Source: Micrococcales bacterium 31B
GTDB lineage: Bacteria > Actinomycetota > Actinomycetes > Actinomycetales > Dermabacteraceae
Direction: 5' to 3'
Assembly (NCBI GenBank): GCA_022803075.1
Contig: JAFFTF010000001.1
Coordinates: forward strand, 219,058-283,057
Length of the DNA: 64,000 nucleotides
How positions within the stretch are numbered: position 1 is the first letter of the stretch; every line of letters starts with the position of its first letter. The notes below the pieces were generated by a model. That model ran no database searches, was not told the origin of the DNA, and saw nothing but the letters and a program-made list of their open reading frames with translations. The position numbers and the translations under genes are program-made. Shown here one piece after another: positions 36,732 through 50,077 of this stretch.

Positions 36732-38270
36732 ATGGAGACGAAAACGCAAGCAGAGACCACCATCGGTGACGTCGTACTGCGCGCAGTCGACGTGACGAAG
36801 ACATTTGGCGCCACTCAGGCCCTTAAGGGAGTGAACCTGGAGGCCCGCGCAGGCAAGGTCACCGTGCTGTTCGGCGAGAACGGTGCCGGAAAATCAACGC
36901 TCATGAAGATCCTCGCGGGAGTGCAAAAGCCCACGTCAGGGCACCTTGAAGTGTTCGGAGAGCAACTAGAACTGTCAAGCACCACCGAGGCCGTCGAGAA
37001 GGGCATCTCGATCATCCACCAGGAACTCAACCTGTGCCCCAACCTCTCCGTGCGCGACAACATCTTCCTCGGCCGCGAGCAGACCACGGGTTTGGGCACG
37101 GTGAATTACCGGGCACAGTCCAAGGTCGTCGCCGACGTCATGAAGTACCTCGAAGAGAACATCTCGCCCGATACCCTCATCTCCGACCTGCGCATCGGCC
37201 AGCAGCAGATCGTCGAAATCGCACGAGCCCTCTCCACCAACGCACGCATCCTCATCATGGACGAGCCGACCTCCGCGCTGAGCGCCCACGAGGTCGAGGT
37301 GCTGTTCAAGGTGATTCGTGAACTGACGAGCAACGGCGTCGCCATCATCTATATCTCGCATCACCTCGAAGAGGCCATCGAAATTTCCGACTACGCCGTC
37401 GTGTTCCGCAACGGTGAACTCGTGGCCACCGAGGATTCGAAAAATATCGACCTGCCCTGGGTGGTGCGCCAAATGGTCGGCCAGGACGCCGACTACGACT
37501 TCCGAGACGCCGAGCGCAACTACGGTGACGTCTTGCTCGACGTCAGGAACGCCCAGGTCGTCGACGAAAACGGGCGCGAACGCCTCGCGGTCAACGACAT
37601 CTCGCTCACCGTTAAAGCGGGAGAAGTGGTGTGTCTCTTCGGACTCATGGGTGCGGGCCGCACCGAACTCGTCGAGGCCATCGCGGGCCGCACCAGATTC
37701 GCGGGCGGCAGCGTCCACCTGGGCGATCTCTCCCTCAACAAGCTCAGCATTGAAGAGCGCATTGAAGCGGGGCTCGTGCTCGTACCCGAGGACCGCCAAC
37801 GCGATGGCCTGGTGCAGTCGATGTCGGTGGGGCAAAACATCACCCTCTCGAGCATGCTGAACCTCGCCAAGCGCCTGATCGTGGGCCGTGGCGCCGAAAA
37901 ATCGGCGATCAAGCAGTCGATTCAAGACGTGAGGGTCAAGACCCAGACCCCCGAGCATCCCATCGGTTCCCTGTCGGGAGGTAACCAGCAGAAGGTCGTC
38001 ATCGCGAAGACCCTCCTCACCAAGCCCAAGGTGCTGGTCCTCGATGAGCCGACCCGAGGCATCGACGTGGGTGCCAAGGGAGAGATCTTTTCACTGCTCT
38101 TTGAGCAGGCCAAGGAGGGCCTGGGCGTCCTCTATGTCACCAGCGAAATCAGCGAAGCAATCACTGCCTCCCATCGAATCGTGGTGCTGGCCAAGGGCCG
38201 CATCGTCAAAGAATTCGATCCGCGCACTTGCACTCGCGAAGACGTCATGGCAGCCACCGGCGGCGCGTGA
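36732..38270 (+). CDS. ribose-type sugar ABC transporter ATP-binding protein (RbsA/MglA family)
   Basis: 512 residues with two ABC domains in tandem. First: Walker A GENGAGKST (~49-57), signature LRIGQQQIVEIARAL, Walker B ILIMDEPTSAL. Second: degenerate Walker A LFGLMGAGRTELVEAIAG, signature LSGGNQQKVVIAKTL, Walker B VLVLDEPTRGID. The degenerate second site is normal in this family. It powers import of a pentose or similar sugar. Five bases after the DUF2291 stop; the ribosome site is weak, so coupling to the upstream gene is probable. Confidence 0.94.
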   Translation: METKTQAETTIGDVVLRAVDVTKTFGATQALKGVNLEARAGKVTVLFGENGAGKSTLMKILAGVQKPTSGHLEVFGEQLELSSTTEAVEKGISIIHQELNLCPNLSVRDNIFLGREQTTGLGTVNYRAQSKVVADVMKYLEENISPDTLISDLRIGQQQIVEIARALSTNARILIMDEPTSALSAHEVEVLFKVIRELTSNGVAIIYISHHLEEAIEISDYAVVFRNGELVATEDSKNIDLPWVVRQMVGQDADYDFRDAERNYGDVLLDVRNAQVVDENGRERLAVNDISLTVKAGEVVCLFGLMGAGRTELVEAIAGRTRFAGGSVHLGDLSLNKLSIEERIEAGLVLVPEDRQRDGLVQSMSVGQNITLSSMLNLAKRLIVGRGAEKSAIKQSIQDVRVKTQTPEHPIGSLSGGNQQKVVIAKTLLTKPKVLVLDEPTRGIDVGAKGEIFSLLFEQAKEGLGVLYVTSEISEAITASHRIVVLAKGRIVKEFDPRTCTREDVMAATGGA

Positions 38271-38314
38271 CCTGCCTCCCCCACCTTCCCTCAAACCACT
38301 ACAGGAGACGTACC

Positions 38315-39415
38315 GTGAGCGACACCGCGAAGGCGGCAGCAGGCGCAGCCGTTCCGAAGAAAATCAACCTCGACAAGGTGCTCCTCGAGGGCCGCGCCCT
38401 TATCGCCCTTGTCATTATCGTGATTGTGTTTTCGCTGCTCAGCCCCAACTACTTGCAACCCGACAACCTCATCATCATGACCCGCCACGTCGCGATGAAT
38501 GCGATCTTGGCTATCGGCATGCTGCTGGTGATTCTGAACGGGGGCATCGACCTCTCAGTGGGCTCGATCGTGGGTCTGTCTGGCGTTTTCGCGGGCTACA
38601 TGCTGGAGGGCATGCACATCGGCGGCATCGACATGTTCCTCTACCCGCAGGTGTGGGTGGTGATGGTCTTGTCGGTCCTGTTGGGTGCCCTGCTGGGCTG
38701 GCTCAATGGCATATTCGTCACGAGATTCAAGGTCGCACCGTTCATCGCGACCCTCGGCATGATGTACGTCGCGCGCGGTATCGCGCTGCTCATCACGAAC
38801 GGTTCGCCGTTCTCCGCACTGGCCGGCGATGCCAAGTACGGCAATACGGGGTTCCTCACCTTCCTCAAGAGCTCACCTCTGGGCCTGCCCATGCCCGTTT
38901 GGGCCATGATCGTGATCGCACTGATCTTCTCGTTCGTGCTCACCAAGACCCCGTTTGGCCGCTGGCTGTACGCCACTGGCGGCAACGAACGTGCCTCCGA
39001 ACTGTCGGGCGTTCCCGTGCAGCGCGTCAAGATCTGGATCTATCTGCTGTCGGGCGCGTGCGCGGCCGTGGTGGGCCTACTGCTGACGGGCGACCTGTCC
39101 TCCGCCACCCCCAACGGCGGCCAGTTCTATGAACTCAACGCCATTGCCGCCGTGGTGATCGGTGGTGCGGCCCTCTCGGGTGGTCGCGGCACCATCCGCG
39201 GCACCCTGATCGGCGCATTCGTGATCGGGTTCCTCGTGGACGGCCTCGTCATCGTCGGAGTTTCCGATTTCTGGCAGCAGATCATCAAGGGCGCCGTCAT
39301 CATCTTCGCCGTGGCCCTCGACCAAATGCAGCAGCGCATTCAGCAAAGCCGCAACGCCCGGGCTGCCGTGGCCGCGGCGGCACCGGTTGCGCCCGCCGCT
39401 TCGGCAGCGAAGTAA
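38315..39415 (+). CDS. ribose-type sugar ABC transporter permease (RbsC family)
   Basis: 366 residues from GTG 38315, which follows AGGAGACGTACC; the longer open frame back to 38228 overlaps the ATPase and is a shadow. Eight to ten hydrophobic segments; family motifs GGIDLSVGSIVGLSG, GWLNGIFVTRFKVAPFIATLGMMYVARGIALL, YATGGNERASELSGV and AVVIGGAALSGGRGTIRGTLIGA. The C-terminal tail is Ala-rich. Forms the membrane channel for the adjacent ATPase. Confidence 0.94.
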   Translation: MSDTAKAAAGAAVPKKINLDKVLLEGRALIALVIIVIVFSLLSPNYLQPDNLIIMTRHVAMNAILAIGMLLVILNGGIDLSVGSIVGLSGVFAGYMLEGMHIGGIDMFLYPQVWVVMVLSVLLGALLGWLNGIFVTRFKVAPFIATLGMMYVARGIALLITNGSPFSALAGDAKYGNTGFLTFLKSSPLGLPMPVWAMIVIALIFSFVLTKTPFGRWLYATGGNERASELSGVPVQRVKIWIYLLSGACAAVVGLLLTGDLSSATPNGGQFYELNAIAAVVIGGAALSGGRGTIRGTLIGAFVIGFLVDGLVIVGVSDFWQQIIKGAVIIFAVALDQMQQRIQQSRNARAAVAAAAPVAPAASAAK

Positions 39416-39469
39416 GTCACCTCAAATTCACCCCTCACAACAAAGAAGTCGCTTTAGAAAGGCAACATA

Positions 39470-40474
39470 ATGTCGATGAATCGTCGCAGTTTCTTCTCCG
39501 TTTCGGCCGCAGTTACGGCCACCATCGCGGGCCTCAGCGCCTGCTCATCGAGCTCGGACGCCGGGTCCGGCGCATCCAGTTCGGCCTCCTCGGGTGGAGC
39601 CGCAGGCGGCACGATCTCGGTAATCACCGTTGACCTCGCGAACCCCTACTGGCAGACCGAGGCGGACGCCGCCAAGGCTGCGATCACTGAGGCGGGTTAC
39701 ACGCCGGAGGTCAACGCTCACGGCAACGATCCCGACAAGCAAAACCAGCTGATCGACAGCGCCATCACCAACAAGGTGAAGGCGATCATCCTCGACCCGG
39801 CCGGCGCCGACCAGTCGGTGGCCGCCGTCGAGAAGGCGCTGGCCGCGGGCATTCCGTGCTTCCTGGTCAACGCCGAAATCTCGAAGCAGGGCGTCGCGAA
39901 GGTGCAGATCGTCTCGAACAACGCACAGGGTGCCACGATTGGTGCCGAAGCGTGGGCTGAGGCCATGGGCGGCAAGGGCGAGTACGTCGAACTGTTCGGC
40001 GCGCCCACCGACAACAACGCTCAGGTGCGTTCGGATGGTTACGCGGGCGTCCTCTCGGGCTACCCCGACCTGAAGAAGCTCGGCCAGGAGACCGCCAACT
40101 GGGACCGCGCGACGGGCAAGACCAAGATGGAAGGCCTCCTCGCGGCCCACCCCAACCTGACTGGCGTGATCTCGGGCAATGACGAAATGGCGCTCGGTGC
40201 GATTCAGGCCATCGAAGCCGCAGGCAAGATGGCGCAGATCAAGGTGCTCGGCTTCGACGGCAGCCCCGACGCCGTGCAGGCGGTCAAGGATGGCAAGCTC
40301 GTCGCAACCGTCTTGCAGCCGATCGTGACGGGCACCCAGCAGGCCGTGGCAGACGCGGCAAAGTTCATCGAAACGGGCGAGGCGCCCGCCACCGAGAAGG
40401 TCAGCATCGACTGCGTGCTCATCAACAAGGACAACGCCGACAAGGTCACGGCGCCATTCACCCTCTCGGCGTAG
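39470..40474 (+). CDS. sugar ABC transporter substrate-binding lipoprotein (RbsB-like)
   Basis: 334 residues; ATG 39470 after GAAAGG. N-terminus MSMNRRSFFS has a Tat-like RRxF, then a hydrophobic core and lipobox LSAC (Cys25), followed by a Ser/Gly linker. The periplasmic-binding fold is of the ribose/LacI type: ISVITVDLANPYWQTEADAAKAAI, IDSAITNKVKAIILDPAGAD, IVSNNAQGATIGAEAWAEAMGG and VISGNDEMALGAIQAIEAAG. The ligand is likely a pentose, a polyol or a related sugar; no catabolic gene in the operon identifies it. Confidence 0.93.
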   Translation: MSMNRRSFFSVSAAVTATIAGLSACSSSSDAGSGASSSASSGGAAGGTISVITVDLANPYWQTEADAAKAAITEAGYTPEVNAHGNDPDKQNQLIDSAITNKVKAIILDPAGADQSVAAVEKALAAGIPCFLVNAEISKQGVAKVQIVSNNAQGATIGAEAWAEAMGGKGEYVELFGAPTDNNAQVRSDGYAGVLSGYPDLKKLGQETANWDRATGKTKMEGLLAAHPNLTGVISGNDEMALGAIQAIEAAGKMAQIKVLGFDGSPDAVQAVKDGKLVATVLQPIVTGTQQAVADAAKFIETGEAPATEKVSIDCVLINKDNADKVTAPFTLSA

Positions 40475-40489
40475 TTCCGGGGGCACTTT

Positions 40490-40530
40490 AGGGGCGGACG
40501 CGCGGTCCACGCGTCCCAGCGTCCGCCCCT
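40490..40530 (+). terminator. hairpin between binding-protein gene and deoR-type gene
   Basis: Arms AGGGGCGGACGC (40490-40501) and GCGTCCGCCCCT (40519-40530), followed by CGGGTTT. It should end or reduce transcription from the transporter genes before the regulator gene. Confidence 0.75.
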
Positions 40531-40552
40531 CGGGTTTGCAGATGGGGGATAC

Positions 40553-41314
40553 ATGCAGATGAATATAAGCGCACGTCACCGGGCCATCGCGGACCTGGTG
40601 ACGGAGGCAGGCACGGTCAGCGCCGCTCAGCTGGCAGAGAAGTTTGGTGTCTCGCTCATGACCGTGCACCGCGACCTCGATGCGTTGCAGGCGACTGGTG
40701 TGCTGCGCAAAGAACGGGGCGGTGCCACGGCGATGCCGAGCAATGTCTTCGAGGCGAGGCTTACGTATCGCAAGTCGAGTAACACGACGGCAAAGTCGAA
40801 GATGGCCGAGGCGGCGCTCGCGCTCGTCGAGCCGGGCATGTCGTTGCTGGTGGATGACTCGAGTTCGGTGCTCGGCGTGGTCGATCACTTGGCCGATAAG
40901 GCACCCGTGCATGTCGCCACGTTCTCTCTGGGGGTGCTCTCGTCGCTGCGCGAGGTCAGCGGAATCAAGAAGATCGGCATTGGCGGTGACTACAGCGAGG
41001 TTTACGACGCGTTTCTCGGGTCGAGCACGCTCGAAACGATTTCATCGCTGTACGCAGATATTTCGTTCATGTCGGGTTCGGGCGTGACGGGCGCCTGCCT
41101 GTATCACCAGGAGGACAGCGTCGCGGCCGTCAAGCGCGCGATGCTTGAGGTGTCGCAGCGGCGCTATGTACTGCTCGATTCGACGAAGTTTGAGCGTACG
41201 GCCCTGCATAAGGTGGCGCCGTTGGCCCAGTTTGATGGGGTGATCACAGATTTATCGGACGCAGCGTTGGTGCAGCAATTGCGCAACGAGGGGGTCACGC
41301 TGCTTCAGGTGTAG
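40553..41314 (+). CDS. DeoR-family transcriptional regulator
   Basis: 253 residues; ATG 40553 after GGGGGA (ATG 40559 is an alternative). DeoR winged helix at residues ~5-58: RHRAIADLVTEAGTVSAAQLAEKFGVSLMTVHRDLDAL, then GVLRKERGGA. The C-terminal sugar-phosphate-sensing domain has LVDDSSSVLGVVDHL, VATFSLGVLSSL and VLLDSTKFERTALHKVAPL, the last typical of DeoR ligand domains. It lies immediately after the sugar transporter operon and probably represses it through the palindrome in the 35956 promoter, with a phosphorylated sugar as inducer. Confidence 0.93.
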   Translation: MQMNISARHRAIADLVTEAGTVSAAQLAEKFGVSLMTVHRDLDALQATGVLRKERGGATAMPSNVFEARLTYRKSSNTTAKSKMAEAALALVEPGMSLLVDDSSSVLGVVDHLADKAPVHVATFSLGVLSSLREVSGIKKIGIGGDYSEVYDAFLGSSTLETISSLYADISFMSGSGVTGACLYHQEDSVAAVKRAMLEVSQRRYVLLDSTKFERTALHKVAPLAQFDGVITDLSDAALVQQLRNEGVTLLQV

Positions 41315-41347
41315 GCCCGAGCGGTGTCGCGTGGTCGGAGTTCATGA

Positions 41348-41386
41348 GATCAGGGCGGGAACCCCAGTGGGGTTCCCGCCCTGATC
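41348..41386. terminator. bidirectional terminator between deoR-type gene and tRNA-Arg
   Basis: Perfect inverted repeat, arms 41348-41366 and 41368-41386 with a single central base (in practice a 3- to 5-base loop). It lies between the deoR stop at 41314 and the 3' end of the minus-strand tRNA at 41415, so it serves both. Confidence 0.85.
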
Positions 41387-41414
41387 TGTTGCCGACGCCT
41401 GCACGGCGCACGAT

Positions 41415-41490
41415 TGGTGCCCTCGATTGGATTCGAACCAACGACACCCACTTTAGGAGAGTGGTGCTCTATCCGCTGAGCTACGAAGGC
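41415..41490 (-). tRNA. tRNA-Arg (anticodon CCU)
   Basis: 76 nucleotides with encoded CCA. Acceptor GCCTTCG pairs with CGAGGGC (one G-U pair); D stem GCTC/GAGC; anticodon stem CCACT/AGTGG with loop CTCCTAA, giving anticodon CCT that reads the rare codon AGG; T stem GTTGG/CCAAT with loop TTCGAAT; discriminator A. All arms are complete. Confidence 0.97.
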
Positions 41491-41569
41491 GCACGAAAAT
41501 ATTCTAGGGCGAAGTGGGTAGAGCGTCAGGTGGGTCTCGTGGGCTAGGCGGCCGTAGCCCGGCACGCGA

Positions 41570-41649
41570 GGGCGCCACGCGGGACGGCGCGTTGTGGGCG
41601 CCACGCGGGGGCGGCGCGTCGAGGGCGCCACGCGGGGGCGGCGCGTCGT
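41570..41649. repeat. three tandem copies of a 27-bp G+C-rich unit
   Basis: Copies at 41570-41595 (26 bases, diverged), 41596-41622 and 41623-41649; the last two differ only at the final base. Each begins GGGCGCCACGCGGG. A partial, more diverged copy follows at 41650. Confidence 0.85.
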
Positions 41650-42113
41650 GGGCGGGACGGAGCGCGGGGCCGCGCGTCCGCAAGGCAGAGCCTGCCGCAA
41701 ACATCCGATGTCTGACTGGCGGCGCCCGGTGCGAAGCCGCTCAAAAGCAGGGGGCGCGGCATTCTGCGTTTATCTGTGTTTTGAGAGTGGCTGGCATGCG
41801 GTTCAGGCCATTGGGGGCTTGCATTTAGAGTGCGCGCGACTGCGAAGGCCGGGTTCAGGTGACGTTCTAGGGGTTGGCGGCGGTTCGGCGGGTCTCGAGG
41901 TTCAGTGCGGCAGCCGACATGGCGGGCTACGTGGTGGCCGACACGGCTAAGTTTGGGCTGGCTCGCGCTCGGCGGACGCTCAGTGCGGCAACCTTGCGCG
42001 CAGGAATTTTTCAGCAAGCCTATAAGGTGCGTCACAGTAAAAGCGATGCTTTGCGCGGGAGTCGGCATAAAACGCTCTTGAACTGGGCTTTTGATTGATA
42101 GTTAAATATTCAA

Positions 42114-42217
42114 AGTTTGGTAACTCGGCTTGACTTGTCGGACAAGCAGGGCGCAATATGGGTGACGACGGAGCGCGCCGCTTGCCCCCTGCGTGGCGCG
42201 CTCTGTCTATTTTTTTT
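42114..42217 (+). ncRNA. candidate small RNA ending in an intrinsic terminator
   Basis: Possible promoter TTGAAC (42078-42083), 18-base spacer, TTAAAT (42102-42107), giving a start near 42114. The transcript would hold a small hairpin CTTGTC-G-GACAAG (42134-42146) and end in the terminator stem GAGCGCGCC (42171-42179) / GGCGCGCTC (42195-42203) with a C-rich loop (GCCCCCT inside), followed by eight T residues (42210-42217). About 104 nucleotides, no open frame. C-rich loops in actinobacterial small RNAs can pair with Shine-Dalgarno G-runs. The start point is the weak part of this call. Confidence 0.5.
42171..42217 (+). terminator. intrinsic terminator with U-run
   Basis: 9-bp perfect G+C stem, 15-base loop, then T(8) after TGTCTA. 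It is the only terminator in the window with a long T-run, and no protein gene lies upstream of it on the plus strand. Confidence 0.8.
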
Positions 42218-42412
42218 GCCGACGGGTCGGCTCTGCAAGTCGTTCGGATCGCAATGTGGCGCTCGGTGGGCACTCTCGACGGCCGCAAAAATACCCTTAG
42301 AAGTTCGCTAGCCTTCCCTGTGGCGGCCCGCGGCCCGTGCGGTGAAAATCGTGACGCTCGACTCGCGCAGTGTCTGACTTTCTTTGGTTTTTATTTTTGA
42401 AGTAGGAGAAAT

Positions 42413-42444
42413 CCCCTGCCGCCAAGCGCAGGGCTCGGCAGGGG
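42413..42444. other. isolated hairpin
   Basis: CCCCTGCCG (42413-42421) / CGGCAGGGG (42436-42444) with a 14-base loop, preceded by a T-rich stretch. No T-run follows it in either direction, so it is not an ordinary terminator; role unknown. Confidence 0.5.
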
Positions 42445-43002
42445 CGCTGATATGAAGATCGATTTCAAATCCCCGCGCGGGGAAGGACGTCGGATGGCCA
42501 TTCGGTTATCGAACAACCCGCCATTGCTGAGGGCGGGTCGGGCGCGGGCCGGCAAAGGTCGGGGGCGGCCCGAGGGCGGCGCGGATTGGCCGCCGGACGT
42601 TGCGCGAGAGCTGCGCATGCGCGGATGGACTGCGCGCCAGCTATGACCACCCGTGCGAAACGTCCGTGTTCGTGGTCCCTGTGCTCGGAAACCCTATGCG
42701 CGACGATCGAAGGGCCCGTCACCGGCGCAATTGCGGCGTCAGGCGCATTCGCCTCGACTGGGCGATGCTCGGAAAGTTACCTGCCTCACGATGCTGCAAA
42801 AGTTTCGTCCGAATCACGATGCGATGTGGTCGAGAGAAAAGCACCACCAGCGCGTACTGTTATGGAGGCAAACATCGCGTGACGCGATGTGCCTACACTC
42901 CCCGCGCGCCGCGCACGGCGCGTTGCGGTCGCAGCCCGCATCGAGCGTTCTCACGCGAACCAGCGCGGAGCATCCACATCACGAAGCAACAGGTGGCACT
43001 GA

Positions 43003-46000
43003 ATGTCAGACAGCGCGCAGCAACTGAGCCGCGAGGACCTCGTCGCCCAGGCCATATCATCGTGGCGCGACGAATTTGAAGTATTGACGGACGTCCCATC
43101 GCTGCGACAGCACATTCGCGCGGGCTTCCCCTACCTCGACATCACCACGTCGCACCCCGCAGGTCTCGCCAAGCTCATGGCACAGGGTACCGCTCGACTC
43201 AGCGAAGTAGTGCGTGAGGCTGCAGCTCAAACGGAGGCCCGTCACGCGGCGGCCGAGATTCACCAAGCAGCCACGCATTGGGCTCAGGAATACGGGCTGT
43301 TCACCACCTACCTCAGCATTGGCGAAGCCACCTGGGTGCCGCTTGACGGTCGCGAATCGCCCGTCATGCCCGTCTTGGTACGCGCCGCAGAACTCAGCAA
43401 TCTTGGTGCTGCCCGCCACGACCTAAACATTGCCCTACATTCGGCCGTCGAGGTCAACCCCGAACTGCTGCGGGCACTCCACGACGTAGGCATACATCTC
43501 GACCCCGAAGAGTTGGTCGAAATGACCCAGGGTTCGTTCGGCCTCGACCCTCTCCCCGCCATTAACGCCCTGCGAGCCCTCGGCGAACCCCTGCCCGGGT
43601 TCACCGTGCGCCAGCGACTGGTGCTCACCAACATCGTCGATGTGGGACAGGCGCTACTCGATGAACTCTCGACAGGCGCTTACCGTCTGCAGCGTCACCC
43701 CGTGATCGCGGCCATCGCCGGAGACACGAAGGCCCGCCACGAGGTGCGGGCCAAGACCGAACCGCTTGATCATGCGACGCTGCGCGAACTCGAAGACCAC
43801 CTCATTGTCGATGCCGACCCCGATGCCGCGAGGGCCCTGAATCTCGCGCGCGCGGGCTCGCACGTCGCCATCACGGCCCCTCGCGGTACCCAGCGCGTCG
43901 AAACCATCCTGAACCTCGTCGCAACCCAAATTGCGGCAGGCAAGAAGGTGCTGCTGGTGTCCCCGCAACGGAGCACGCTCGAAGATCTGCACCGCCGCGC
44001 GGCTGAGCTCGATCTCGACCGCCTCCTACTCGACCTGGGGCCGACCCCTCAGTCGCAACTGGAGGCACGCGCGTCGCTCGCGGAGTCCCTTGCCGAGGCG
44101 GACTACGATGTCGACGTACCGCCCGAGCCCCTGGCTGAGCTGCATCGATGCGCCAAGTTGCTCAATGACCACGCCCGTGCCGTGCGCACGGTGAACGCCG
44201 AGATCGGCGTCTCGCTGCTCGACTGTTTAGAGGCGCTCGCGCGCCTTACCGCCGCAGAGGACGCCCCCTCGTCTCAGGTGATCATCCACGACCAGCACGT
44301 GCCGGGAGTCTCCCGCCAGCGTGCCCAGTTGGTCCGCCTCTTGCTGAGAGCGAGTGAGCTGGGTGCCTTCGAAGGCACCATCAAGCCCTCGCCCTGGGAC
44401 GGGTCGACGGTGCGCAGCGCGGCCGACACCGACAACGCCCTGGTCGCCCTGCGGGCCTTGCAGGGCCAGCACCTACCGCAGGTGCGTCAAGTGATTGAGG
44501 AGAATGGGCCGAGCCTTGGGCTCGCCCCCGTGGAAACCCTCGCCGACCTTGAAGAGCGACTCGACCTCGTAGACTCCCTGCGCGATACCCTTATGGGAGT
44601 GCGCGACGAGGCTTTCGCGCAGGACCCGCACGACCTGATCGCCGCCACGGCAACCAAGGAATGGCGCCAGGAGCGCGGCATCGATCAATCCATGTTCTTG
44701 CGCCGCAAACTCGTGCGGCAGGCGCAGGCCCTCGCGATGCCCGGCGCAGAGGCTGACCTGCACGTGCGCTTGCTGGAAGTGAGTGCCCTGAGGGAGCGCT
44801 GGCGAGCGTTCAGCACCGACGGCAGTACCCCTCGACTTCCGCACGGGCTGGGGCATTCGCGCGCCGCGTTTGAAGTGTGCCTCGTGGCACTGCGCAATCT
44901 CGCGGGGATTCTGCCGCAGCACGACGATGGCGGCGGCTTTAAGCACATGACCTTTGACGAGATCGACGGGCTGATTGCTGGCCTCCTCGCCGAACAAGAA
45001 TCGCTCGTGACTCTCACCGAACGCAATGAGTTGGTGGCCCGGCTCGACCAGGCGGGCCTGCGCCCGCTCTGTGAGGATTTCCGGACGCGGTCCGTGTCGG
45101 CTGATCGCATTGACGCAGAGTTCACGCTCGTGTGGTGGTCCAGCGCGATGCAATACATTGTCGGGCGCGAGGAAAGCCTCGAGGTGTTCACGAGTCGCGA
45201 CCTCATTATGCAGGTAGCGCACGATTTCCGGACGCTCGATGAGCAGCACATCAAGAATGGCAAGTTCCGGGTCTTGCAGACGGCTCGCACGTTGCTGCGT
45301 GCTGCGATAGAGGAGCACGGTCAGCTCGACGAGTCGGGGCGTCGCACGCTGTTGAGCCTGCAACGAACCTCTTTGCGCGATCTGCTCGTGCGGTTCGCAC
45401 CTGTGCTGACTGCGGTGCGACCGTGCTGGCTCGTGTCTCCCTATCTGGTGCCGCAGCTGGTTCCGACGCGCGTCATCGGCCAACTCGAGAAGCCCATGTT
45501 TGATGTTGTGATTCTCGCTGACGTCGGCCAAATGTCAGACGCGGCCGCGGTCGCCGCGATGTCGCGCGCTCATCAAGTGATTGCGATTGGTGACCCGCAT
45601 CAGGTGGTGCCGGGGCATCTCAATCGTCGAGTTGCCGCGCGCAGCGCCCTCGACACGTGCCGAGAGATATTGCCGCACATCGCGCTGACCCGCAGCAATG
45701 TGACCCGCTCAGGTAGCGTGCAGGAGTTCGTGCAGAGCCACCTGTTCGCTGGTGAAATGAGTTGTGTGCCGAGCCCGTTCACGGGTGATGCGGACCAAAT
45801 CATGTTCGTCAACGATCGCGGTGGCGCACAGATCTCGCCGGACGGTGTGGTCGAATCGAGCCAGTCGGAACTCCAACTGCTGGGTTCCATCATCCTGCAG
45901 CACGCCAAGTACTTTTCCGATAAGTCGCTCGCGGTGGTGACGTTCACGGAGTCGCACGCCGCCCGCGTCATGGAGCACGTGTTGCATCGAGTGGCCCTGC

Positions 46001-47316
46001 GAGGAGATGTGGCACCGTTCTTCGACCCCTCTCGGCCGGAGCCCTTCGTGGTGGTGGCCGCGGCGCACGCCGGGAGCCTCGAGCGGGATTCGGTGATCGT
46101 GTCGGTGGGCTTCACAAAGTCTCCGCATCGTCGAGTGGTGTACCGCATGGGGCCCCTTACCAGCGAAAATGGTAGAGAGGCGCTCGCGGTGGCGCTCACG
46201 CGAGCGCGGGCCAACACCCTGGTCATCTCTGCTTTGCGGGGCTCCGACCTCGACCCTGAGAAAATTAGGTACCGGGGCCTGGCCGACCTCAAGACTTTCT
46301 TGGAGTTCATGGAGCTGCGCTACGCTCCAGACCCGGTGGACGAGCCCGCCGCGCCCGACGGGGCCGAGGGCGCGCCCGCTGTACCGACCGACGCGCCAGC
46401 AGACGCCTTGGGCGACAACGATCCCACTGTGGCCCGGACCGAGGACGCCGGCGCCGACGCTGGTACGGAGGCCAACGAAGCGTCCGCCTCAGAAACCCCA
46501 GAAACCCGACAAACCCCGGAAACCCCGGAAACCCCGGAAACCCCAGCCGATGTCGCCGCCCCCGGGCTGCACGAGCCGGTCGTCGCGGAACCGGTGGCGG
46601 CGCCCACGGCGCGCGAAGACATCAGCACGACCGCGCACCGCGTGCGGAGCGGTTCGCGCTCGCCGCACCTCTCAGACCTCGACCCCCTGCTAAGCGAGGT
46701 CGCGGACCGGCTGTGGTTCGCGGGCCTCATCGTCGAAACCGAATTCGGCGAGGGCGACGAGCGCATCGCCCTCGCGCTGGGCTCGCAGCGCGTGCCCGGG
46801 CGCATGCTCGTGGCAGTTGAGCCGGATACGCGCGTGCGTCCGCTCAGCCGCAGCGTGCGGGAGCGTGATCGCCTGCGGCTCGAACGGCTCGAGAGGGCCG
46901 GCTGGCAGGTCGAACGACTGTGGGCGTGGCCGCTGTTCCTCGACCCCAAGGGCGAGGCGGAACGATTGCGTGCGCTCGTGGAGTCGCTCGCCGACGACGT
47001 GTTGGCTCCGCCGGCCCCGCCCGAGCCGTTGCCCGCACCGGTGGTGGTGCAGCAGGTTCCGGATCGCGGGCCCAAGCCCATGGTGCCCGACAACACGCCG
47101 CTGTCCGAACTCAGCGAGGGCCTGTGGGACCGCATGCTGCAGTGGATCATGAAAGACGAGGTGCCGCGCCTCGAGGAGGAACTCGCCAACGAATTGCGCC
47201 GCGAAATGGGCTTCACCAAGCGAGGCGTACACATTGACATCTCGGTTTATTCGACGATTCGCCGCTATCAGGCGAGCCTCGATGACGAAGCGCAGAGGAC
47301 GCCCCCTTATGTCTAA
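43003..47316 (+). CDS. decayed superfamily 1 helicase-like / Vsr-fold nuclease-like protein
   Basis: 1437 residues. Architecture follows the large DUF4011-type SF1 helicase-nuclease family, but active sites are lost. Where Walker A should be (about 290-300) it reads ITAPRGTQRVETILNLVA instead of GPPGTGKSQTI, with no Lys-Ser/Thr. Motif II (about 833) is FDVVILADVGQ in place of the DEASQ box. GDPHQ (about 862) and the motif VI region ALAVALTRARANTLVIS (about 1058) are kept. A disordered Asp/Glu/Pro linker with ETP repeats (about 1164-1181) leads to a Vsr-like domain (about 1227-1330): RIALAL where RIDLAV is expected, VAVEPD with E and D kept, then RERDRLRLERLERAGWQVERLW. Probably a DNA-binding or scaffold protein now, not an active motor. 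Coupled to the gene after it. Confidence 0.8.
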   Translation: MSDSAQQLSREDLVAQAISSWRDEFEVLTDVPSLRQHIRAGFPYLDITTSHPAGLAKLMAQGTARLSEVVREAAAQTEARHAAAEIHQAATHWAQEYGLFTTYLSIGEATWVPLDGRESPVMPVLVRAAELSNLGAARHDLNIALHSAVEVNPELLRALHDVGIHLDPEELVEMTQGSFGLDPLPAINALRALGEPLPGFTVRQRLVLTNIVDVGQALLDELSTGAYRLQRHPVIAAIAGDTKARHEVRAKTEPLDHATLRELEDHLIVDADPDAARALNLARAGSHVAITAPRGTQRVETILNLVATQIAAGKKVLLVSPQRSTLEDLHRRAAELDLDRLLLDLGPTPQSQLEARASLAESLAEADYDVDVPPEPLAELHRCAKLLNDHARAVRTVNAEIGVSLLDCLEALARLTAAEDAPSSQVIIHDQHVPGVSRQRAQLVRLLLRASELGAFEGTIKPSPWDGSTVRSAADTDNALVALRALQGQHLPQVRQVIEENGPSLGLAPVETLADLEERLDLVDSLRDTLMGVRDEAFAQDPHDLIAATATKEWRQERGIDQSMFLRRKLVRQAQALAMPGAEADLHVRLLEVSALRERWRAFSTDGSTPRLPHGLGHSRAAFEVCLVALRNLAGILPQHDDGGGFKHMTFDEIDGLIAGLLAEQESLVTLTERNELVARLDQAGLRPLCEDFRTRSVSADRIDAEFTLVWWSSAMQYIVGREESLEVFTSRDLIMQVAHDFRTLDEQHIKNGKFRVLQTARTLLRAAIEEHGQLDESGRRTLLSLQRTSLRDLLVRFAPVLTAVRPCWLVSPYLVPQLVPTRVIGQLEKPMFDVVILADVGQMSDAAAVAAMSRAHQVIAIGDPHQVVPGHLNRRVAARSALDTCREILPHIALTRSNVTRSGSVQEFVQSHLFAGEMSCVPSPFTGDADQIMFVNDRGGAQISPDGVVESSQSELQLLGSIILQHAKYFSDKSLAVVTFTESHAARVMEHVLHRVALRGDVAPFFDPSRPEPFVVVAAAHAGSLERDSVIVSVGFTKSPHRRVVYRMGPLTSENGREALAVALTRARANTLVISALRGSDLDPEKIRYRGLADLKTFLEFMELRYAPDPVDEPAAPDGAEGAPAVPTDAPADALGDNDPTVARTEDAGADAGTEANEASASETPETRQTPETPETPETPADVAAPGLHEPVVAEPVAAPTAREDISTTAHRVRSGSRSPHLSDLDPLLSEVADRLWFAGLIVETEFGEGDERIALALGSQRVPGRMLVAVEPDTRVRPLSRSVRERDRLRLERLERAGWQVERLWAWPLFLDPKGEAERLRALVESLADDVLAPPAPPEPLPAPVVVQQVPDRGPKPMVPDNTPLSELSEGLWDRMLQWIMKDEVPRLEEELANELRREMGFTKRGVHIDISVYSTIRRYQASLDDEAQRTPPYV
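46492..46545. repeat. six 9-bp units in the helicase-like gene
   Basis: Units of the form GAAACCCC[AG], two of them diverged, encoding ETP ETR QTP ETP ETP ETP in the linker before the nuclease-like domain. In frame, so length can vary without disrupting the protein. Confidence 0.85.
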
Positions 47317-49177: not shown

Positions 49178-50077
49178 ATGACCGCACCGCAGTCAGCCCA
49201 ACGCACTGCCCAGCCGACCCCCTCGAACCCGGCTGCCAGCGCGGCCACCGAGGCGTCCGGCCCGGCTACCGAGGTGCACGAGATCGTGACGATCAGCATG
49301 ATCGGGGTCGGCAATATGGGCGGGGCGATTGCGCAGGGCCTGATCGCCGCGGGTGTCGATCCGCAGCACCTGGTGGTGGTGGGCAGCACTCCCGAGTCCA
49401 CGGAACGGGTGGCCGCGAAGTTTGGGGCCCGAGCGGGGACGGCGGCCGAGGCCGCGGCGTGCGACGCCGTGATCTTGGGGGTCAAGCCGGCGGGGGTCGT
49501 GCCGTTGCTCGAGTCGATAGCGCCGTCGCTCGGTGCCGAGAGCATTGTGGTTTCGCTCGCCGCGGGGGTGAGCCTGAAGAAGATGGAGCACGTCGCGCCG
49601 ACGGCTCACATCGTGCGCGCCATGCCCAATACACCCGTATTGGTGCGGCGCGGTGCGACCGCACTGTCGGCCGGACGCCACGTCACGGCAGCCCACATGA
49701 CCGCCATCAAACACCTACTCGAACCCACGGGTCTCGTCATTGAGGTCGCCGAAAAAGACATGGACGCCGTTGTCGCGGTCTCCGGCTCCGGCCCCGCCTA
49801 CATCTTCCACATGATCGACGCCATGGCCGAAGCCGGGGTTCGCCTCGGCCTCACCCGACAGGTAGCGCTCGACCTCGCCGTCGCCACGGTCGAGGGCGCC
49901 GGCACGCAACTGCGCGAAACCGGCATGCACCCCGCGCTCGCCCGCGAAATGGTGACGAGCCCCGGGGGCACGACGGCCCAGGCGCTCGCCGTGCTGGACC
50001 GCCAGGTGTTCCGTGGCATCGTCGGGGACGCCATGGAGGCCGCGGCCCAGCGCTCCCACGAACTGGGCAAGAACTAA
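49178..50077 (+). CDS. proC: pyrroline-5-carboxylate reductase
   Basis: 299 residues. Last step of proline synthesis. An N-terminal extension of ~38 residues (TAPQSAQRTAQ..., low complexity) precedes the Rossmann motif MIGVGNMGGAIAQGLI. Family features: PNTPVLVRRGATALSAG, AVSGSGPAYIFHMIDAMAEAGVRLG and PGGTTAQALAVLD. ATG 49178 after AAGGAACGTCAC. The stop abuts the convergent trkA-type gene. Confidence 0.95.
   Translation: MTAPQSAQRTAQPTPSNPAASAATEASGPATEVHEIVTISMIGVGNMGGAIAQGLIAAGVDPQHLVVVGSTPESTERVAAKFGARAGTAAEAAACDAVILGVKPAGVVPLLESIAPSLGAESIVVSLAAGVSLKKMEHVAPTAHIVRAMPNTPVLVRRGATALSAGRHVTAAHMTAIKHLLEPTGLVIEVAEKDMDAVVAVSGSGPAYIFHMIDAMAEAGVRLGLTRQVALDLAVATVEGAGTQLRETGMHPALAREMVTSPGGTTAQALAVLDRQVFRGIVGDAMEAAAQRSHELGKN

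Follow-up and report, generated by a model that had tools for sequence, protein, structure and literature searches.

A helicase-nuclease locus maintained across the Actinomycetales after repeated loss of its catalytic motifs

What does a large helicase do once its motor is gone? This question is raised by a gene in a 64,000-nucleotide stretch of DNA (the window) from Micrococcales bacterium 31B, taken from contig JAFFTF010000001.1 (positions 219,058 to 283,057 of the forward strand). The source genome belongs to the Dermabacteraceae (family f1 in our numbering, with Brachybacterium, Dermabacter, and Helcobacillus) in the order Actinomycetales. The gene, an open reading frame on the forward strand (ORF 43003-47316), encodes a helicase-nuclease of 1437 residues with degenerate ATPase motifs, and a preliminary description made from the sequence had proposed that selection retains it in this state. 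Our results support that proposal and amend it, because the loss extends over the entire order and the inactive state arose more than once on the trees. Coordinates of all features are collected in Table 1.

The 1437-codon frame contains no internal stop. Its GC contents at the three codon positions are 0.73/0.46/0.78, the second position is the lowest in every 200-codon block, and because this signature extends along its length the frame looks coding throughout. The readings TAPRGTQRVET, ADVGQ, and RIALAL reported in the preliminary description were all found at the motifs to which it had assigned them. R298 occupies the Lys position of the P-loop and is followed by V299, a pair that includes neither Lys nor Ser/Thr. 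In motif II, Ala839 stands at the Mg-binding Asp position and Asp840 replaces Glu. Active superfamily 1 (SF1) helicases of the Upf1/Dna2-like type have a Walker A Lys and a motif II Asp-Glu pair, and ORF 43003-47316 has neither. The Arg region of motif VI is intact, as had been noted. Motif III had also been called intact, but only its G, D, and Q have survived, without the LPP found after the motif in motif-intact relatives. Likewise, the nuclease acids D...ExD of motif-intact relatives correspond here to A1256, E1273, and D1275. The preliminary description had allowed that a usable P-loop might lie elsewhere in the chain, but the pattern [AG]xxxxGK[ST] was sought along all 1437 residues and was not found. 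Judged by these motifs, the product probably does not hydrolyze ATP.

The AlphaFold model predicts an SF1B (Upf1/Dna2-like) helicase fold, with two RecA domains and a 1B insertion, joined to a Vsr-fold nuclease domain. The assignment of the latter is shared by the Pfam profile PF18741 (MTES_1575), which passes its cut-off (45.4 versus 38.2 bits). In contrast, DUF4011 (12 versus 22.2 bits) and AAA_11 (13.7 versus 27 bits) remain under theirs, although both cut-offs are passed by the motif-intact orthologs L036 and L048. The earlier assignment of a DUF4011-type SF1 layout with a Vsr domain thus holds for the predicted fold and for PF18741, but not for the two helicase profiles. Foldseek on the Vsr part alone gave no match at E < 0.001, and a second structural comparison of this part returned Vsr-like matches. 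Chains of the inactivated helicases AddB and RecC, to which the fold may nevertheless be similar, are absent among the 50 structural matches listed.

The loss is not confined to this species. In the alignment of orthologs that the preliminary description had called for, the Lys and the motif II DE pair are missing from 30/30 Dermabacteraceae sequences (ORF 43003-47316 included), and in an order-level table with one row per genome, where Walker A is covered by 49 rows, 46 of these lack the Lys. We therefore rejected a recent decay in this species alone. The remaining three rows (L036, L079, and L048) are motif-intact, with Walker A, DEASQ, GDERQLPPT, and the first nuclease Asp all in place. Two further protein searches were examined through the best 119 of 536 matches and the best 120 of 830 matches, the latter including Bifidobacterium. 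At the aligned positions, neither Lys nor DE occurs in any protein of either set (0/119 and 0/120), and the P-loop pattern occurs only at an unrelated position in 2/120 (P0189 and P0275) and in 0/119. A third set of 63 protein matches is mixed, with both Lys and DE in 36/63 and neither in 27/63. Among inactive relatives, position 298 is A, V, T, G, R, S, L, Q, I, H, and others, and motif II varies by family (AD, DA, LD, LE, DD, or others).

The family is present nearly everywhere in the order. Matches were found in 72 of 73 distinct genomes, including the source genome (58/58 and 38/39 in overlapping sets); the sole unmatched genome (G117) is 62% complete, and the match in G123 is a mere fragment at a contig end. 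The sampled order takes in Bifidobacterium actinocoloniiforme (G038) and Occultella glacieicola (G047). Outside the order the family is rare. A class-level sample gave matches in 8/40 genomes, of which three belong to the order; among the rest, E < 1e-80 is reached only in G134 and G146. A phylum-level sample gave 7/60, two of them from the order. The proteins of G134 and G146 (L126 and L128), which represent two other orders of the class, have Arg in place of the Walker A Lys and the motif II readings MDAHQ and DDAAR; they are inactive through changes of their own and represent additional losses beyond the order.

To follow the loss, trees were built with the motif columns excluded, including a careful tree with a site mixture. 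The inactive L090 (f17) and L080/L081 (f5) cluster with motif-intact genes of those families in a five-row clade (99/99). The placement of L090 varies: it lies beside L048 at 90/88 in a later tree and outside L048 and f5 in the first. Approximately unbiased (AU) tests reject a single clade of the inactive rows of the order (p-AU 0.00097) and a single clade of all inactive rows (p-AU 0.00028; 0.0066 in another row set), and they also reject a tree that unites the order's three motif-intact rows (p 0.039; 0.0054 in another row set); these values are somewhat flattering because motif state was used to define the groups once the first tree had been seen. With this caveat and that of long branches, one ancestral loss is rejected. 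Unordered parsimony gives 3 changes, or 4 in a wider row set. If Lys cannot be regained, the careful tree calls for separate losses in L090, L080/L081, and the large clade, plus one or two in L126/L128 of the other orders.

The inactive orthologs sampled are under purifying selection to stay intact. Nei-Gojobori dN/dS ranges from 0.042 to 0.438 in 16 inactive pairs, which are not all independent since 8 Brachybacterium pairs share members, and the ratio is rough in three pairs with dS >1. The sole motif-intact pair (L036/L079) gives 0.261. The lowest dN falls in the fourth fifth of the protein (approximately motifs II to VI) in 6/8 Brachybacterium pairs. For the copy in the window itself, the open frame and the codon signature are what suggest selection. 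The gene can accordingly be called a pseudohelicase, in that it descends from a motif-intact helicase, has lost the motifs, and is kept by selection as measured in its relatives.

Constraint differs among parts of the protein, although the comparison is descriptive, resting on average identities in sets that differ in depth. In six motif-intact rows, mean identity is 0.68 in the P-loop part versus 0.48 in the Vsr part. In 12 Dermabacteraceae rows it is 0.48 in the P-loop part, 0.72 in the 1B domain, 0.71 in the Vsr domain, and 0.74 in the C-terminal domain. In a Bifidobacterium set (0.66 versus 0.69) and a Cellulomonas-type set (0.60 versus 0.63), the P-loop and Vsr parts hardly differ.

The gene also keeps its place on the chromosome. 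Neighbors were examined at 53 loci, some of which are short contigs, so missing neighbors are uninformative. A tRNA-Arg(CCU) gene lies upstream in 28 of these loci, from 12 families, and is on the opposite strand in 22/28. Downstream, mscL is found in 19/53 loci (12 families) and fmdB in 21/53 (14 families); a 5-formyltetrahydrofolate (5-FTHF) cyclo-ligase gene is found in 12/53 and a GNAT gene in 13/53. At least one of the tRNA, mscL, and fmdB is present at the locus in 19/20 sampled families of the order, the exception being f20 (L078), and we therefore regard this as one ancestral locus. The simplest interpretation is vertical inheritance at a single site. The Dermabacteraceae have the tRNA upstream in 13/17 loci, including that of ORF 43003-47316, and neither mscL nor fmdB was seen at these 17 loci. 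None of the shared neighbors was seen beside L094 and L095, which come from other classes. The motif-intact L048 is flanked by the tRNA, mscL, and fmdB, and L036 and L079 by mscL and fmdB. Because these copies occupy the same mscL/fmdB slot, their later import is disfavored, though in-place gene replacement may have occurred.

Table 1. Features of the pseudohelicase-nuclease gene and its conserved neighbors (positions in the window)
Feature	Position	Strand	Basis
tRNA-Arg(CCU), divergent, conserved upstream neighbor	41415..41490	-	Upstream in 28/53 loci
Pseudohelicase-nuclease gene, 1437 aa	43003..47316	+	Open frame, codon-position GC, matches in 58/58 genomes
1B-like beta-rich domain (putative name), residues 101-215	43303..43647	+	AlphaFold strands 102-110, 121-134, 140-151, 201-210
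Degenerate Walker A TAPRGTQRVET, residues 291-301, without Lys	43873..43905	+	Motif alignment
Long helical insertion between RecA1 halves, residues 346-805	44038..45417	+	Model secondary structure
Degenerate motif II ADVGQ, residues 839-843	45517..45531	+	Motif alignment
Motif III remnant GDPHQ, residues 863-867	45589..45603	+	Asp864 kept in 49/54 inactive rows
Second RecA-like domain, residues 901-1110	45703..46332	+	SF1 fold matches reaching residue 1110
Motif VI region LTRARA, residues 1065-1070	46195..46212	+	Retained in this copy and in Dermabacteraceae; missing from several further families
Vsr-fold (MTES_1575) domain, residues 1226-1340	46678..47022	+	
RIALAL, residues 1254-1259; Ala1256 at catalytic Asp position	46762..46779	+	Motif alignment
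VAVEPDT, residues 1270-1276; Glu1273 and Asp1275 kept	46810..46830	+	Motif alignment
C-terminal three-helix domain, residues 1341-1437	47023..47313	+	Model helices; mean identity 0.74 in 12 Dermabacteraceae relatives
proC (P5C reductase), downstream neighbor	49178..50077	+	17/17 Dermabacteraceae loci including this one

Several other observations concern the surroundings of the gene. In the 1.5-kb gap between the tRNA and ORF 43003-47316, positions 41560-41654 hold a GC-rich 27-base unit repeated 3.6 times in tandem, and an Rfam scan of 41300-43100 gave no match besides the tRNA. Farther upstream (36732-41314) lies a predicted ABC transporter set (ATPase, permease, and periplasmic binding protein) with a DeoR regulator. 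On another contig of the same genome (G000:C26, L077:5962-13290, minus strand) is a distant 2443-residue relative whose motifs are intact (GPPGTGKSQTI, DEASQ, GDSRQMPP, and ITRARR). This relative has DUF4011, AAA_11/12, and MTES_1575 matches and a DUF3320 match below cut-off.

We propose that the product of ORF 43003-47316 is a non-motor scaffold that likely recognizes nucleic-acid structure, and we assign this reading a probability of about 0.55. It starts from a helicase-nuclease gene at one conserved locus whose ATPase residues are gone here and in most of the lineages sampled. The protein would attach to a structure in DNA or RNA and make it available to a partner, much as AddB, RecC, and Deinococcus PriA do; the nucleic acid may lie in the old track and on the Vsr fold, and the partner would supply catalysis. 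The SF1B fold is held, the ATP pocket is freed, the Vsr fold is held without its acids, and the gene is present across the order, and together these features suggest a binder rather than a motor. The preliminary description had likewise offered DNA binding, a decoy, or a regulator as the new role, and these too are roles that we would infer from the sequence.

Several points weigh against the scaffold proposal. First, motifs III and VI decay as well in several families, and therefore the old track may be unused in some of them. Second, the contrast in constraint comes from mean identities in sets of unequal depth and disappears in the Bifidobacterium and Cellulomonas-type sets. Third, the AU groups were chosen after the first tree among long branches, and ORF 43003-47316 itself sits on one (1.06-1.15), with no close relative among the sequences compared. 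Finally, the conserved neighbors (mscL, fmdB, 5-FTHF cyclo-ligase, GNAT, and proC) suggest no DNA or RNA process. None of them is suggestive as a partner, and no motor gene is among the shared neighbors examined. An obligate partnership with a long motif-intact relative is unlikely because a second long frame of this distant type (1831-2443 residues) was listed for only 7/58 genomes, with at most 10 candidates scored per genome.

Mobile DNA commonly inserts at tRNA genes, and the closest whole-protein profiles are those of defense proteins. The ancestor of the family may have been a defense enzyme that took up a position next to tRNA-Arg(CCU) and later became a housekeeping gene. In a fuller and tentative version of this history, an antiviral helicase-nuclease would have landed by the tRNA in the ancestor of the order and become housekeeping; separate lineages would then have repeatedly shed the motor, and for the most part the nuclease as well, because only the reading of nucleic-acid structure was in use. 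Against a defensive origin, the flanks of the locus are core genes. Being core does not by itself distinguish housekeeping from defense, since a DUF4011 gene is core in Pseudomonas aeruginosa and flanks a defense hotspot (PMC10250203).

The main alternative is that an antiviral role was kept without the motor, the protein being a sensor, decoy, or guard derived from a defense helicase-nuclease. The best profile matches of ORF 43003-47316 are indeed defense models: PADLOC PDC-S37 (325.4 bits, E 2.1e-97, with the match split in three stretches), NCBIfam ProA (NF058533; 293.7 bits, E 2.7e-87), and NCBIfam Hhe (NF042953; 145.5 bits, E 1.3e-42). Motif-intact relatives match these models more strongly, with PDC-S37 scores of 804-940 bits in four of them and E values of 9.6e-283 (PDC-S37) and 3.2e-274 (ProA) in L094. 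The upstream tRNA and the P. aeruginosa precedent are also compatible with defense. However, the curated cut-offs of 1500 (ProA) and 2000 (Hhe) are both missed, presence in 72/73 genomes, for the most part at a single vertically inherited locus, is unlike the patchy occurrence of defense genes, and dN/dS is well below 1. We regard an antiviral role as unlikely, although it is the foremost competitor of the scaffold proposal.

Could the Vsr-type domain still cut without a motor? Among the Dermabacteraceae, the position of the catalytic Asp (in the RID motif) is E or D in 27/27 relatives aligning there (L013 and L026 are unaligned at this point), and the Vsr domain is one of the most conserved parts of the protein. 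Because the acid is kept in these relatives, Ala1256 is a further step in the lineage of ORF 43003-47316. The position is Pro in 119/119 and 120/120 proteins of the two best-match sets, and position 1273 is mostly Leu (108/119 and 84/120); cutting therefore cannot be the shared function. Asp1275 (window positions 46825-46827) persists in nearly all inactive orthologs, in contrast to the other nuclease acids, most of which have been lost: it is kept in 50/54 inactive rows (3 gaps, 1 Glu) and in 120/120 and 118/119 proteins of the two best-match sets. The sequences thus suggest that the Vsr fold is held and the cutting site is not. An ATP-independent nuclease is conceivable for the Dermabacteraceae relatives but improbable for ORF 43003-47316 and the other sets, and it is doubtful as a general explanation.

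Two explanations fare worse. A relic on its way to becoming a pseudogene would explain the several lost catalytic sites and the long branch, and the frames of L013 and L026 are split near the nuclease domain, but an open 1437-codon frame with a coding signature, dN/dS well below 1 in 16/16 inactive pairs, and presence across the order already disfavor it, and we consider it very unlikely. In L013 and L026 a second frame continues after the split, which may be a true break or an assembly error. Least credible of all is a helicase that still runs on ATP through a non-canonical P-loop, since the intact motif VI, the motif III Asp, and the single motif II acid left by Asp840 are set against R298, V299, and Ala at the Mg-binding Asp, and a Lys position as variable as that of the inactive relatives would not be allowed in a working pocket.

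Pseudohelicases are already known as a kind; what appears to be new is an order-wide locus that was inactivated repeatedly. No such helicase-nuclease locus was found in searches of the open-licence PMC literature, where papers using the term "pseudohelicase" deal with other families, judged by title and abstract. The word "helicase" is absent from the main text of a Bifidobacterium breve transposon study (PMC5514069). Pseudohelicases have been known singly (AddB/RecC, Deinococcus PriA, and Utp25). Here, motif-intact, newly inactive, and long-inactive versions occur at a single orthologous locus, and the hosts include tractable ones such as Bifidobacterium, so that what a helicase does once its motor is gone becomes directly testable. 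There are also consequences for annotation. The Bifidobacterium proteins with an NCBI name among the best 120 of 830 matches are annotated "helicase", and in many commensal genomes "helicase" or "DNA helicase" likely names an activity that these proteins lack. Furthermore, defense-profile matches of the ProA/Hhe/PDC-S37 kind need a motif check.

How, then, does ORF 43003-47316 compare with known systems? ProA, Hhe, and PDC-S37 are its best profile matches, and it differs from them in scoring far below the ProA and Hhe cut-offs, in having lost the catalytic motifs, and in occupying an order-wide locus. It shares a Vsr-fold domain with REase_MTES_1575 (PF18741), which is named for Microbacterium testaceum MTES_1575, but its first catalytic acid is Ala. 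The namesake protein has more than 2000 residues and carries HEPN and transglutaminase domains (PMC3710099).

The closest parallels in function may be other helicases that have lost their motors. PMC4824097 describes inactivated helicase domains in AddB and RecC that keep the SF1 topology with most motifs lost, as in ORF 43003-47316, and that scan single-stranded DNA for Chi. ORF 43003-47316 differs in being Upf1/Dna2-like (SF1B) with a Vsr fold and in that no AddA/RecB-like partner was found beside the gene. In Deinococcus radiodurans PriA, according to PMC4504706, motifs I and II of an otherwise intact helicase are lost clade-wide, as they are in the family studied here, and the protein has no ATPase activity and still binds DNA and DnaB. 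Binding and a partner are thus known for PriA, which belongs to an unrelated helicase family and lost its motifs in one clade, whereas the helicase-nuclease family described here lost them several times.

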